Made by a program: the position numbers and the translations under genes | From: Candidatus Falkowiibacteriota bacterium | GTDB lineage: Bacteria > Patescibacteriota > Patescibacteriia > Patescibacteriales > UBA12465 | Reading direction: 5' to 3' | Assembly: GCA_009885285.1 (NCBI GenBank) | Contig: VFKX01000031.1 | Coordinates: 1-33,314 of the forward strand | DNA length: 33,314 nt | Notes under the pieces: model-generated | Seen by the model: the letters and a program-made list of their open reading frames with translations, nothing else | What the model was told of the DNA's origin: nothing | The model's database searches: none | In this document: positions 21,768-24,941 of the stretch, piece by piece | How positions within the stretch are numbered: position 1 is the stretch's first letter | Layout: every line of letters begins with the position of its first letter

Positions 21768-22784
21768 ATGGAGATATTTTATTTTAGTATTCAAAAAGAA
21801 TTAGACGATTTTATTAGAGACGCAGCCGATCAACGCGGAGCGGAGTTTTTGCAGTCTTGGCGCTGGGGAGAGCTTCTGAAGGCGGAGAAGGCCTCAGTTT
21901 TGCGGCTTGGAGTCCGGCGCACGGTCGGCCAGAAGCTAAGGTCGGGCGCTAGTCATGAAATCTTAGCAGCTGCGACTATGGTTAAATATTCCTTGGGCGC
22001 AGGTTTAACATATTGGTATGCGCCGCGCGGTGTTATATACAACAAACAATTATCGGACAATGACCGAATTACTACGGAAAATTATTTATATTTAGAAACA
22101 AAAAAGATTGATCCGGCGGCAGTTTTTATGAGAATTGAGCCGGCAACGGCAATTGCCGAAAATATTTTTGGCTGTAAAAAAACTATTGATTTGCAGCCCA
22201 AGCAGACTTTGATTCTCGATATAAATAAAAGCGAGGCGGAATTGCTTCAGGAAATGCATCATAAGACCCGCTATAATGTAAATTTAGCGGTTAAAAAAGT
22301 GGTAATCATTAAAGAAGGGGACTTGTCTGATTTTCCGGAGTTCTGGCGCTTGATGAGTCTGACCGGCACCCGCGATGATTTTCGTTTGCACAGCGAAGAG
22401 CATTATCGTCATCTCTTAAGTATCGGGTCCGATGTAATCAAGTTTTATTTCGCTGTTTATGAGGGGCGAAATATCGCTGCCGGCATATTTTATTTCTGGG
22501 GCGATAAGGCGACATATTTGCACGGGGCGAGCGATAATGAATTCCGCAATGTGATGGCCCCGTATTTATTACAATGGACAGTAATTAAACAAGCAAAAAA
22601 AGAAGGTTTTCGTTATTACGATTTTTATGGCATCAATGAAGATAAATGGCCTGGTGTGACGCGCTTTAAGCAGGGCTTCGGCGGGCGAGTAGAGAATTAT
22701 CTTGGCACGCATGATATTGTTTTCCGTCCCGGCCTATACTGCGGATATGGGTTGATAAGAAAATTAAAGAGGCTAGTAAAATAA
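21768..22784 (+). CDS. FemAB/FemX-like peptidoglycan bridge aminoacyltransferase
   Basis: This 338-residue protein has the two GNAT-like subdomains of the Fem family. Signature stretches include MHHKTRYNVNLAVKKVV near 162-178, FYFAVYEGRNIAAGIFYFWGDKATYLHGAS near 226-255 and the C-terminal YYDFYGINEDKWPGVTRFKQGFGG. Fem enzymes add amino acids from aminoacyl-tRNA to the lipid II stem peptide, building interpeptide bridges on the cytoplasmic side. The amino acid used cannot be told. An RR-rich stretch (VRRTVGQKLRSGASHE, about 48-63) may be a lineage insertion. A short inverted-repeat terminator follows directly. Confidence 0.88.
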   Translation: MEIFYFSIQKELDDFIRDAADQRGAEFLQSWRWGELLKAEKASVLRLGVRRTVGQKLRSGASHEILAAATMVKYSLGAGLTYWYAPRGVIYNKQLSDNDRITTENYLYLETKKIDPAAVFMRIEPATAIAENIFGCKKTIDLQPKQTLILDINKSEAELLQEMHHKTRYNVNLAVKKVVIIKEGDLSDFPEFWRLMSLTGTRDDFRLHSEEHYRHLLSIGSDVIKFYFAVYEGRNIAAGIFYFWGDKATYLHGASDNEFRNVMAPYLLQWTVIKQAKKEGFRYYDFYGINEDKWPGVTRFKQGFGGRVENYLGTHDIVFRPGLYCGYGLIRKLKRLVK

Positions 22785-22785
22785 A

Positions 22786-22849
22786 AAATCCCCCTGATGG
22801 GAGATATTTATGGTTCCTTTGCGGTTCCAATCCGAACTTGACACTTGGC
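22786..22849 (-). ncRNA. Candidate small RNA, copy 1 (antisense to the ybeY leader region)
   Basis: On the minus strand an extended -10 TGATATAAT (22864-22856) predicts a start near 22849. The transcript would contain GGAACCGCAAAGGAACC and end in a hairpin (ATCTCCC, loop ATCA, GGGGGAT) with a T-run at about 22789-22784. Copy 2 at 23335-23405 has the same order, and the distance from the -10 box to CCGCAA is the same 32 bases. No open frame is seen in it. On the plus strand the same hairpin could end the femX-like transcript. No known RNA family was recognised. Confidence 0.5.
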
Positions 22850-22867
22850 AAAATAATTATATCAAAT

Positions 22868-23320
22868 ATGTTGGAAATCAACAATACAACTAGTGCTAAG
22901 GTAAATAAAAAAAAGCTGGAATTAATTGCCGAAAAATTTTCGCAAACTTTTAAAAATAAGGGCGATATTTCTCTGGCGATTGTCGGGCCGGCGCGGATAA
23001 AAAGCCTGAATCGGGATTATCGCGGCTTGGATAAGGCGACGGATGTTCTGTCTTTTACAGAAGAACGCGAAATTATTATTAATTTTTCTGATACTCAGAA
23101 ATTGAAAAAATATCAGTCCATGTTTACAGAACTGGGCTATGATATCAGTAGCGCGAAGAGCAAGGCGAGAACAGGAAAAATAAAAGAATATCTCTTATAT
23201 TTCCTATTCGTGCACGGCTTATTGCATTTGGCCGGCTATGACGACATGTCTGAGTCGGAGCGTTTGATAATGATAAGAAAAGGCCGAGACTTTTTGCAGA
23301 AAATTGGGCTGGATTGGTAA
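22868..23320 (+). CDS. ybeY: Endoribonuclease YbeY (16S rRNA maturation / ribosome quality control)
   Basis: From ATG 22868 the protein has 150 residues. It has the family landmarks LNRDYRGLDKATDVLSF near 46-62 and the metal-binding motif HGLLHLAGYDD near 117-127. YbeY is a zinc-dependent single-strand RNase that helps 16S rRNA 3'-end maturation and ribosome quality control. In the usual motif HGxLHLxGYDH the third zinc ligand is His. Here the residue is Asp, which could still coordinate a metal but would change its affinity. An in-frame start at 22838 (MTLGK...) is less likely because the family begins close to LEINN. The candidate small RNA copy 1 overlaps the region just upstream. Confidence 0.9.
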   Translation: MLEINNTTSAKVNKKKLELIAEKFSQTFKNKGDISLAIVGPARIKSLNRDYRGLDKATDVLSFTEEREIIINFSDTQKLKKYQSMFTELGYDISSAKSKARTGKIKEYLLYFLFVHGLLHLAGYDDMSESERLIMIRKGRDFLQKIGLDW

Positions 23321-23334
23321 TTTACGGTAGTGGA

Positions 23335-23405
23335 AAATAAAAAATCCCCCAATTGGGAGATTTTTATACTTCCGTTGCGGATCCGGTTGAGCCAAACTTA
23401 ACAAT
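23335..23405 (-). ncRNA. Candidate small RNA, copy 2 (minus strand, downstream of ybeY)
   Basis: On the minus strand a promoter TTGACG, 16 bases, TATAAT (23439-23412) predicts a start near 23405. The transcript would contain GGATCCGCAACGGAAG, which folds as TCCG-CAA-CGGA, and end in an intrinsic terminator (AAAAATCTCCC, loop AATT, GGGGGATTTTTT) at about 23366-23341. Its core and hairpin match copy 1 with about 75 percent identity by eye, and the promoter-to-core distance is identical. It lies in the 169-base gap between ybeY and the next gene. Confidence 0.6.
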
Positions 23406-23411
23406 ATATTA

Positions 23412-23439
23412 ATTATAGCAGGATAAATATTCTCGTCAA
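23412..23439 (-). promoter_or_regulatory. Promoter of small RNA copy 2
   Basis: TTGACG (minus strand, 23439-23434), a 16-base spacer and TATAAT (23417-23412). It drives no known protein gene, which is the main reason to consider a non-coding RNA here. Confidence 0.6.
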
Positions 23440-23489: not shown

Positions 23490-24941
23490 ATGAATTTTGT
23501 CCCCGGAAAAAATAAGTATTTCTTGCCTGTGCTGGCGCTAACTTTAGCGGCCGGTCTTTTTGCTTTCCGGTCGGCAGGAGCGACTATCTCCACGCTGCGC
23601 GGGGCGGCCTGGTATGGTAGCCAATATAAATATGTCTATTTTGACTGCTTAGATGATATTACCGGCGATCGTTTAGATGTTACGGGTAATATCACGACGC
23701 CGCCTGGCTTCCGTTTTTATACCACGCCGTGCACGAGTATTGTTCATCACTCTGCAATTTTGACCAATAATAATTTAACCGGCGATGCCTGGAACTCCGT
23801 TCTCGGCTATATCTCGCTTGACGGTACTGCCACTCCGCCAGACGGTGGGGCTAGTATTAATTCTATTTGTCCGACAACTTGCAATCCGAGTAATGATTGC
23901 TGGGCTTGCTATAATCCGGCTGACCAGAAAATCTATGGCTGGGGTCGGGTTGATGCGAGCGGGGAATGGATAAAATTTAACAGCGCTACGACGACGCCGG
24001 TAAAGAATCAGGGCTGGGATTATCTTGGAAATTCCGTTTTGCCGGGCCATAATATTCAGCCAGGAGATTTTGTCGGCGACGCCTCGAGCAATCTCGGTTA
24101 TTTAAGTTTTAATTGCGAAAGCGAGCTCGGCGGGGCCGGGAATTGCGGTTTGCGGGACTATAAGGTTTATATTAGTAATTTGCAAATTGGCCACTTATCC
24201 GCCCCGAACTGGGGGTTCTTGGAAGCCTGTAGCGGTGGGGCTTTAAAGGCCGTTTTAAAATGGGACTTGCGCAGCGGCGAGCAGGATGGTTATGAAGTAG
24301 TGGTGAATGACAGTCCGAGCTTTGCGACGAGCAGCGGTGATTATCTCTGTTGGAGTGGTGTGAAGACTCCGGCCGTGGCCTCGCAATACATTATTCCCAA
24401 TACCGACCCGAATTGTCAGGCCCTAGATTATAATAGTAATTATTATTGGTGGGTGCGTCTCTATGATTTGATCGACGGGGAATATGTGCCGACGGAATGG
24501 TATAAATTTGGCGGCGTCGACGGACACAATGGTTTAACAGACGGTCAAACAGACGGTAATCCGGATAATAATATCCAGACCTTTTCCACTTATCTTCATG
24601 AGTTCACTAGTCCTTTCTTTACCTGGACCCCTTATGACATTCTCGTCGCGACTTCAACGGAATTTGAAGCTTTGACCGGCTCCCGTTATTTTTCTTCAGC
24701 CACTCCCGCTTTACCCCAGAGTTGTTTCGGTAATAATTGCCGTTTCCTGTGGTCGACTAATGACCCTTTAGCTATCATCTCTAATCCGACTGGCGCGACG
24801 ACCTCCATGACTTTTTTTAGCGCGACTGGCACAACGGTTTCCTTACGCCTGACTGATCCCGATGATTATGTCTGCACGATGTCCACCGTTATCCGCATTA
24901 ATTACGGCCTGCCGATTTGGCGCGAAGTGAAGGCGGAATAA
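23490..24941 (+). CDS. Large secreted protein of unknown function in the pilin region
   Basis: This 483-residue protein has a signal peptide (basic start, hydrophobic LPVLALTLAAGLFAF, then SAGA). The exported part has many Asn, Asp, Gly, Trp and Cys residues. Cys-rich stretches (CPTTCNPSNDCWACYN near 125-140; SCFGNNCRF near 430) suggest disulfides. A middle segment (WDLRSGEQDGYEVVVNDSPSF ... YYWWVRLYDL) resembles fibronectin type III-like beta-sandwich repeats, and the C-terminal part (RFLWSTNDPLAIISNPTG...VSLRLTDPDDYVC) a PKD-type fold. It heads a run of four genes for pseudopilins and a PilX-like protein and may be pilus-associated. Confidence 0.75.
   Translation: MNFVPGKNKYFLPVLALTLAAGLFAFRSAGATISTLRGAAWYGSQYKYVYFDCLDDITGDRLDVTGNITTPPGFRFYTTPCTSIVHHSAILTNNNLTGDAWNSVLGYISLDGTATPPDGGASINSICPTTCNPSNDCWACYNPADQKIYGWGRVDASGEWIKFNSATTTPVKNQGWDYLGNSVLPGHNIQPGDFVGDASSNLGYLSFNCESELGGAGNCGLRDYKVYISNLQIGHLSAPNWGFLEACSGGALKAVLKWDLRSGEQDGYEVVVNDSPSFATSSGDYLCWSGVKTPAVASQYIIPNTDPNCQALDYNSNYYWWVRLYDLIDGEYVPTEWYKFGGVDGHNGLTDGQTDGNPDNNIQTFSTYLHEFTSPFFTWTPYDILVATSTEFEALTGSRYFSSATPALPQSCFGNNCRFLWSTNDPLAIISNPTGATTSMTFFSATGTTVSLRLTDPDDYVCTMSTVIRINYGLPIWREVKAE

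Follow-up and report, generated by a model that had tools for sequence, protein, structure and literature searches.

What are the two minus-strand elements that lie on either side of ybeY in the window, meaning the whole 33,314-nt stretch of DNA analysed, and what might they act on? The initial annotation described in each gap a promoter, a CCGCAA core and a terminator hairpin, and took the elements for possible regulatory RNAs or leader-like elements. All three parts are present on the minus strand in both, here named W1 and W2, and the distance from the -10 box to CCGCAA is 32 positions in each, as described. The elements had also been placed opposite protein genes; they do run antisense to the operon direction, but both sit in gaps (W1 between FemAB and ybeY, W2 between ybeY and the next gene), and only the W1 -35 box falls inside ybeY codons.

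Two related putative minus-strand RNA genes beside ybeY

The features are given below. H1, H2 and H3 are segments complementary to a tRNA-like RNA: H1 joins the sRNA 5' end to the 5' arm and loop of the hairpin at the anticodon position, H2 pairs with the D-arm, and H3 with the 3' arm before the T-arm.

21768..22784, plus strand: FemAB-family gene (Pfam PF02388, 137 bits), ending beside the W1 terminator
22785..22849, minus strand: W1, orphan antisense sRNA, putative transcript of about 65 nt
22788..22805, minus strand: W1 intrinsic terminator, called by the terminator scan
22824-22819, minus strand: W1 CCGCAA core
22821..22830, minus strand: W1 H2 segment TTGGAACCGC, 10 continuous pairs with the D-arm GTGGTTCCGG (shuffle p 0.005)
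22832..22849, minus strand: W1 H1 segment, mismatched complement of the tRNA-like hairpin 5' arm and loop
22856..22861, minus strand: W1 -10 box TATAAT, read from the sequence
22879..22884, minus strand: W1 -35 box TTGTTG, by eye, 17-nt spacer, within ybeY codons
22868..23320, plus strand: ybeY (Pfam PF02130, 77 bits), between W1 and W2
23338..23405, minus strand: W2, orphan antisense sRNA, putative transcript of about 67 nt
23340..23365, minus strand: W2 intrinsic terminator, palindromic, usable on both strands
23368..23373, minus strand: W2 H3 segment GGAAGT, facing GCTTCC before the T-arm (p 0.18 alone)
23380-23375, minus strand: W2 CCGCAA core
23377..23386, minus strand: W2 H2 segment CCGGATCCGC, pairing with the D-arm GTGGTTCCGG with one mismatch (p 0.022)
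23391..23405, minus strand: W2 H1 segment, 15 continuous pairs with the tRNA-like RNA
23412..23417, minus strand: W2 -10 box TATAAT, with TG before it, from the promoter scan
23434..23439, minus strand: W2 -35 box TTGACG, from the promoter scan, 16-nt spacer

No gap is needed to align W1 with W2 between the -10 box and the U-run, and over 51 nt at the 3' end they are 84% identical. Their likeness is not due to chance, since exact copies of the 15-nt core motif occur at just two places in the 1.43-Mb genome, W1 and W2, and since a third homologue is present in the same genome (G000:C34:2562-2632, 84%, E=2e-15). The latter emerged when W2 was searched at the DNA level against the genomes of the family, where weaker matches were also seen elsewhere. 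W1 and W2 are homologous to the partner sRNAs of complete units, in which an sRNA gene accompanies a tRNA-like gene. The W2 promoter has 11/12 consensus matches in the promoter scan.

No Rfam family reaches its gathering score in the window, W1 and W2 included, and such matches are also absent from L037, L010, L012, L011, L014 and L024; the best sub-threshold match is Phe_leader, with 30 bits against 55. The 483-aa protein encoded after W2 (window 23490-24938) has no Pfam match.

A tRNA-Ala-like RNA and its complementary partner

The third sRNA copy is adjoined upstream, on the same strand, by a 71-nt tRNA-Ala-like RNA (G000:C34:2438-2508) that contains CCGAACTTAACAG, the exact complement of CTGTTAAGTTCGG in its sRNA. 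There are four tRNA-like genes in this genome, and none in the window. The tmRNA model RF00023 matches the C34 copy partially, below the cut-off. Members of the tRNA-like family are 70-72 nt long. Their 7-bp acceptor stem carries G3:U70, and A73 serves as discriminator; the T-arm is canonical, the D-arm is miniature (3-4 bp) and contains GG, and the anticodon position is taken by a U-turn hairpin whose loop has 7-9 nt. ARAGORN makes no call at the scanned tRNA-like loci, although it finds ordinary tRNAs in the same set. A model of the RNA built from an alignment of 17 genes (R1) separates the two classes in the family, true members scoring at least 53 bits and ordinary tRNAs under 47. The fold is supported by covariation among 63 members (94.3% of cells paired, compared with 74.9% after shuffling), with 248 both-side changes against 64 in shuffled alignments and none of 500 shuffles as high.

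G3:U70 and A73 are found in 64 of the 64 units while acceptor pairs 4-7 covary, the invariance of G3:U70 being partly a matter of hit selection, since the founding set already had it and the pattern search required it. AlaRS relies chiefly on G3:U70 to identify alanine tRNAs (PMC6451123). With both of these tRNA-Ala identity elements, the tRNA-like RNA is a candidate AlaRS substrate and may be alanylated. An extra or special AlaRS was considered and rejected, as no genome in which AlaRS was found has more than one strong match to it. The family AlaRS genes (e.g. G000:C2:36047-37354) are mostly frames of about 590-640 codons, below the usual AlaRS length, and may be missing the tRNA-elbow-binding C-terminal domain.

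In the loop, U33 is kept, position 37, a purine in decoding tRNAs, is C in 55/63 members and the triplet is not fixed; the last two features make decoding unlikely. UAA, UGA and UAG are striking in the first 17 members only, and the idea of a conserved stop codon was dropped when other members proved to carry CGA, UGU, CUC and GCG. A YUNR U-turn motif is present in 54/63 loops, compared with 26.8 after shuffling. Two 75-nt variants, L253 (G577) and L260 (G542), have a longer D-arm, a TTTGACA loop and weak upstream partners, and are possibly intermediates between true tRNAs and the tRNA-like family.

Among the first units found in relatives, the sequences differ while the arrangement and the complementarity are the same, and in an all-against-all comparison the cognate sRNA ranks best or second-best for the neighbouring tRNA-like RNA in 15 of 17. 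Across 62 pairs, 89.9% of H1 cells are paired, against 60.6% with shuffled partners, and both-side changes number 319 against 86 (0/1000); with one pair per family, 89.3% are paired against 56.2%. These H1 figures lean upward, because H1 was located by its complementarity, whereas H2, H3 and the blind test described below are independent of that location. Cognate pairing exceeds permuted pairing for H2 (z=14.3; 5.9 with one pair per family) and for H3 (z=8.6; 3.3 with one pair per family), while both control segments, the acceptor 5' strand and the T-arm, are at or below 0. H3 crosses H1 and H2, so the simultaneous formation of all three helices is putative.

The sRNA, 60-80 nt long, consists almost entirely of pairing segments and terminator, and no conserved reading frame is seen in the alignments of either RNA. 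Short tag frames, GCA ACG GAA GTA TAA in W2 and GCA AAG GAA CCA TAA in W1, had been entertained as parts of a two-piece tmRNA; neither is conserved in other sRNAs, and the candidate was rejected. CCGCAA turns out to be the end of the D-arm-pairing segment, and not, with the hairpin, the conserved heart of the design that it had been thought to be. What is conserved is a set of three segments able to pair with a distinct, tRNA-like RNA. Regulatory RNA was nevertheless the right class.

W1 and W2 retain this complementarity in H1 and H2. In W1, H1 GCCAAGTGTCAAGTTCGG pairs, with mismatches, with CCGAACTTAACAGTCGGC of the tRNA-like RNA (shuffle p 0.0005); in W2, standard pairs including G-U are formed at 15/15 positions between H1 ATTGTTAAGTTTGGC and GCCGAACTTAACAGT (shuffle p 0.0005). 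H3 alone is significant in neither. The predicted net binding to the C34 copy is -18.0 kcal/mol for W1 and -16.7 kcal/mol for W2, compared with -19.0 kcal/mol for its own sRNA, and for the other three tRNA-like copies in the genome W1 and W2 are predicted at -9.5 kcal/mol or weaker.

Promoters of the sRNAs average 10.3/12 consensus matches and those of the tRNA-like RNAs 7.3/12 (shuffled 7.0), the sRNA promoter being the stronger in 37 of 39 units. H1 typically starts 6-7 nt past the -10 box, and so presumably forms the RNA 5' end. Covarying complementarity together with an own promoter and terminator, judged by consensus matches, makes it well supported by sequence that the sRNA family consists of base-pairing antisense RNAs.

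YUNR U-turns are used for fast docking in antisense systems. In the mechanism that we propose, the sRNA 5' end would dock on the U-turn loop and invade the 5' side of the hairpin (H1), and would next open the D-arm (H2) and capture the 3' strand (H3). The L-shape would then be lost, the acceptor/T-arm minihelix alone would remain, and the tRNA-like RNA would be inactivated. The loss of D-arm and hairpin on pairing, the stronger sRNA promoters and the U-turn together suggest inactivation by an excess of antisense RNA. We consider it highly probable that the sRNA is an antisense RNA that pairs with, and probably unfolds, a tRNA-Ala look-alike, which is a statement of mechanism and not of purpose. 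What can be read from the sequences is two RNA genes, their coupled evolution, the constraint on G3:U70, the promoter imbalance and the orphan state of W1 and W2; from these we infer transcription, alanylation by AlaRS and inactivation.

Distribution of the units and the state of W1 and W2

A total of 64 units was collected across Patescibacteria (CPR). A strict pattern built on the tRNA-like RNA only was run over 84,980 species and gave 27 hits, of which all with a lineage in the title are CPR (Falkow-, Davies-, Gottesman-, Magasanik-, Peregrini-, Brenner- and Doudnabacteria, Patescibacteria or Parcubacteria). The pattern loci from further CPR lineages have a partner in 8/8 cases. A wider model, R2, run on 381 genomes of the class, has matches at E<=1e-8 in 45 genomes, ordinary tRNAs among them; among its new hits no longer than 72 nt, 14/16 are accompanied by a complementary partner (p 0.04 or better), compared with 0/17 for ordinary tRNAs. 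Viral contigs contain no match to the strict pattern, and spread on viruses was set aside within the scope of that pattern.

The sRNA gene is found downstream of, upstream of, convergent with or divergent from the tRNA-like gene, the upstream and divergent partners appearing as new arrangements among the R2 hits. Four gene arrangements argue against leader and attenuator readings, and T-box, leader or attenuator were rejected on these grounds; the earlier suggestion of leader-like elements is not supported. Convergent partner sRNAs on the opposite strand are seen at L124, L128, L129, L136, L184, L185, L186 and L198, in several lineages. In family f66 the tRNA-like gene has an apparent terminator of its own, and the tRNA-like genes of G116 and G102 encode CCA. 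The module occurs patchily, in 19 of 39 family genomes, with one to six copies per genome that mostly have distinct pairing addresses. At least 23 units are intergenic and antisense to both flanking genes, and most lie beside unrelated genes, e.g. ligA and gatC.

G036, which belongs to the same genus, has a complete unit in the FemAB-ybeY gap and another in the gap between ybeY and the next gene, the sRNA of the first being degenerate. G025 has a complete unit in the first gap, and in most other relatives the gap is empty. The proposal that these are conserved small transcription units, and more than terminators, is supported by the units of G025 and G036 in these gaps; conservation of terminator hairpins alone, which had been named as the pattern that would speak against it, holds for G031 only. 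The FemAB-ybeY gap of G031 (L216) contains nothing but a W1-like terminator hairpin, which may mark the end point of a unit's decay. Given the units of G036 and G025 and the terminator of G031, W1 and W2 are most simply read as the leftover antisense halves of two modules whose tRNA-like half has been deleted; that the tRNA-like half goes first is suggested by a few loci. A W2-like sRNA at L012 (G027:C19:5445-5534), in a genome with no detected tRNA-like gene, is a further case of an antisense-only locus.

On their predicted pairing, W1 and W2 probably act in trans on the C34 copy, but they could instead be relics. We think it somewhat unlikely that they are themselves dead and persist because their palindromic terminators also end the FemAB and ybeY transcripts. 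Such a terminator stands alone in the same gap of G031, either terminator could also work on the plus strand, and W1 has lost its original -35 box and has a mismatched H1. However, TATAAT is perfect in both, the W2 promoter is nearly consensus, and in both RNAs H1 and H2 match the C34 copy well beyond shuffled expectation, with a predicted binding energy close to that of the cognate sRNA.

Possible roles of the RNA pair

The likeliest reason for the patchy multicopy spread is addiction, with an RNA toxin and an RNA antitoxin, to which we would give slightly less than an even chance. Patchy presence, one to six copies, intergenic antisense placement and surviving antisense halves fit an addiction module, and the stronger promoters on the antisense side are a further indirect sign. 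Tentatively, an alanylated tRNA-Ala mimic could poison translation or the supply of alanyl-tRNA, with the antisense RNA restraining it and W1 and W2 serving as anti-addiction elements.

It is less probable, and on balance doubtful, that the tRNA-like RNA is a useful carrier of alanine, for FemAB-type peptidoglycan bridging or lipid alanylation, tuned by its antisense RNA. The invariant G3:U70 and A73 and the non-decoding loop agree with such a carrier, a FemAB-family gene is the neighbour of W1 and of two complete units, and pseudo-tRNAs with cell-wall effects are known (PMC3399842). However, many relatives have FemAB without any unit, most units have unrelated neighbours (ligA, gatC), and presence is patchy (19/39). 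Dependence on FemAB is not supported, since FemAB occurs without the module; in many genomes it even lies next to ybeY with no unit.

A positive role for the sRNA, in which the two RNAs form one particle like a two-piece tmRNA-type RNA, is improbable. Three intermolecular helices, with H3 pseudoknot-like, exceed the needs of a simple antisense RNA, the tRNA-like RNA scores on the tmRNA family model (below cut-off), and the pair is conserved across a phylum. Against this, the sRNA is nearly all pairing segments and terminator with no conserved frame, the promoters imply an excess of sRNA, W1 and W2 survive without a local partner, the free tRNA-like RNA has a covarying D-arm and hairpin that would be lost in the complex, and the same genome has a full-length tmRNA (G000:C17, L087 501-886), for which ARAGORN reports the unusual tag VKTTSAFTWNVPSYAPVMA. 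An ordinary resemblance of two unrelated terminators with chance promoters can be dismissed: AT-rich intergenic DNA does yield many promoter-like sites and terminators do look alike, but the homology is ungapped over the whole transcript, a third copy exists and pairing is cognate-specific in 62 units.

The putative toxin-antitoxin pair has its closest parallels in type VIII modules (SdsR/RyeA, CreTA), where both members are likewise small non-coding RNAs and partner-specific. Some CreT toxins act on tRNA function (PMC8501985). Here, by contrast, one RNA is tRNA-Ala-like, its partner pairs through three segments, no Cas complex is implied and toxicity is putative. With hok/Sok, RNAI/RNAII and pMV158 RNAII the system shares a short sRNA, a terminator and a strong promoter, and plasmid-copy and type I antisense RNAs likewise set a single-stranded 5' tail on a YUNR loop (compare PMC4485353). 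The target here, however, is a tRNA-like non-coding RNA and not an mRNA or replication primer, and the partner gene lies up- or downstream on either strand. The tRNA-like domain of tmRNA has G3:U70, A73, the T-arm and a reduced D-arm in common with the present RNA, in keeping with the partial RF00023 match, whereas the latter is 70-72 nt long with no mRNA-like domain or tag, and exists alongside a separate full tmRNA. The Bacillus cereus tRNA-Other is also a tRNA-shaped RNA outside decoding (PMC3399842). In contrast to it, the module described here has a partner as a constant feature. For tRNA-Other we know of no antisense partner. Bacterial Y RNAs (YrlA) contain a tRNA-like module but are not known to have an intact 7-bp acceptor stem with G3:U70 or an antisense partner. 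To our knowledge, there is no earlier case of a tRNA-like RNA with a dedicated antisense RNA. We found no description of the system in full-text searches of open-access literature, absence there being no proof of novelty.

Should the tRNA-like RNA turn out to be simply an RNA toxin, the system would be less novel, amounting to a variant of type VIII systems. The module may, however, be a new RNA-RNA type of toxin-antitoxin system or a regulated alanine carrier. A conserved, fast co-evolving pair of non-coding RNAs, recognised neither by the tRNA finder nor by the Rfam families used here, occurs across Patescibacteria, and a largely uncultured radiation gains a testable entry into CPR RNA regulation.
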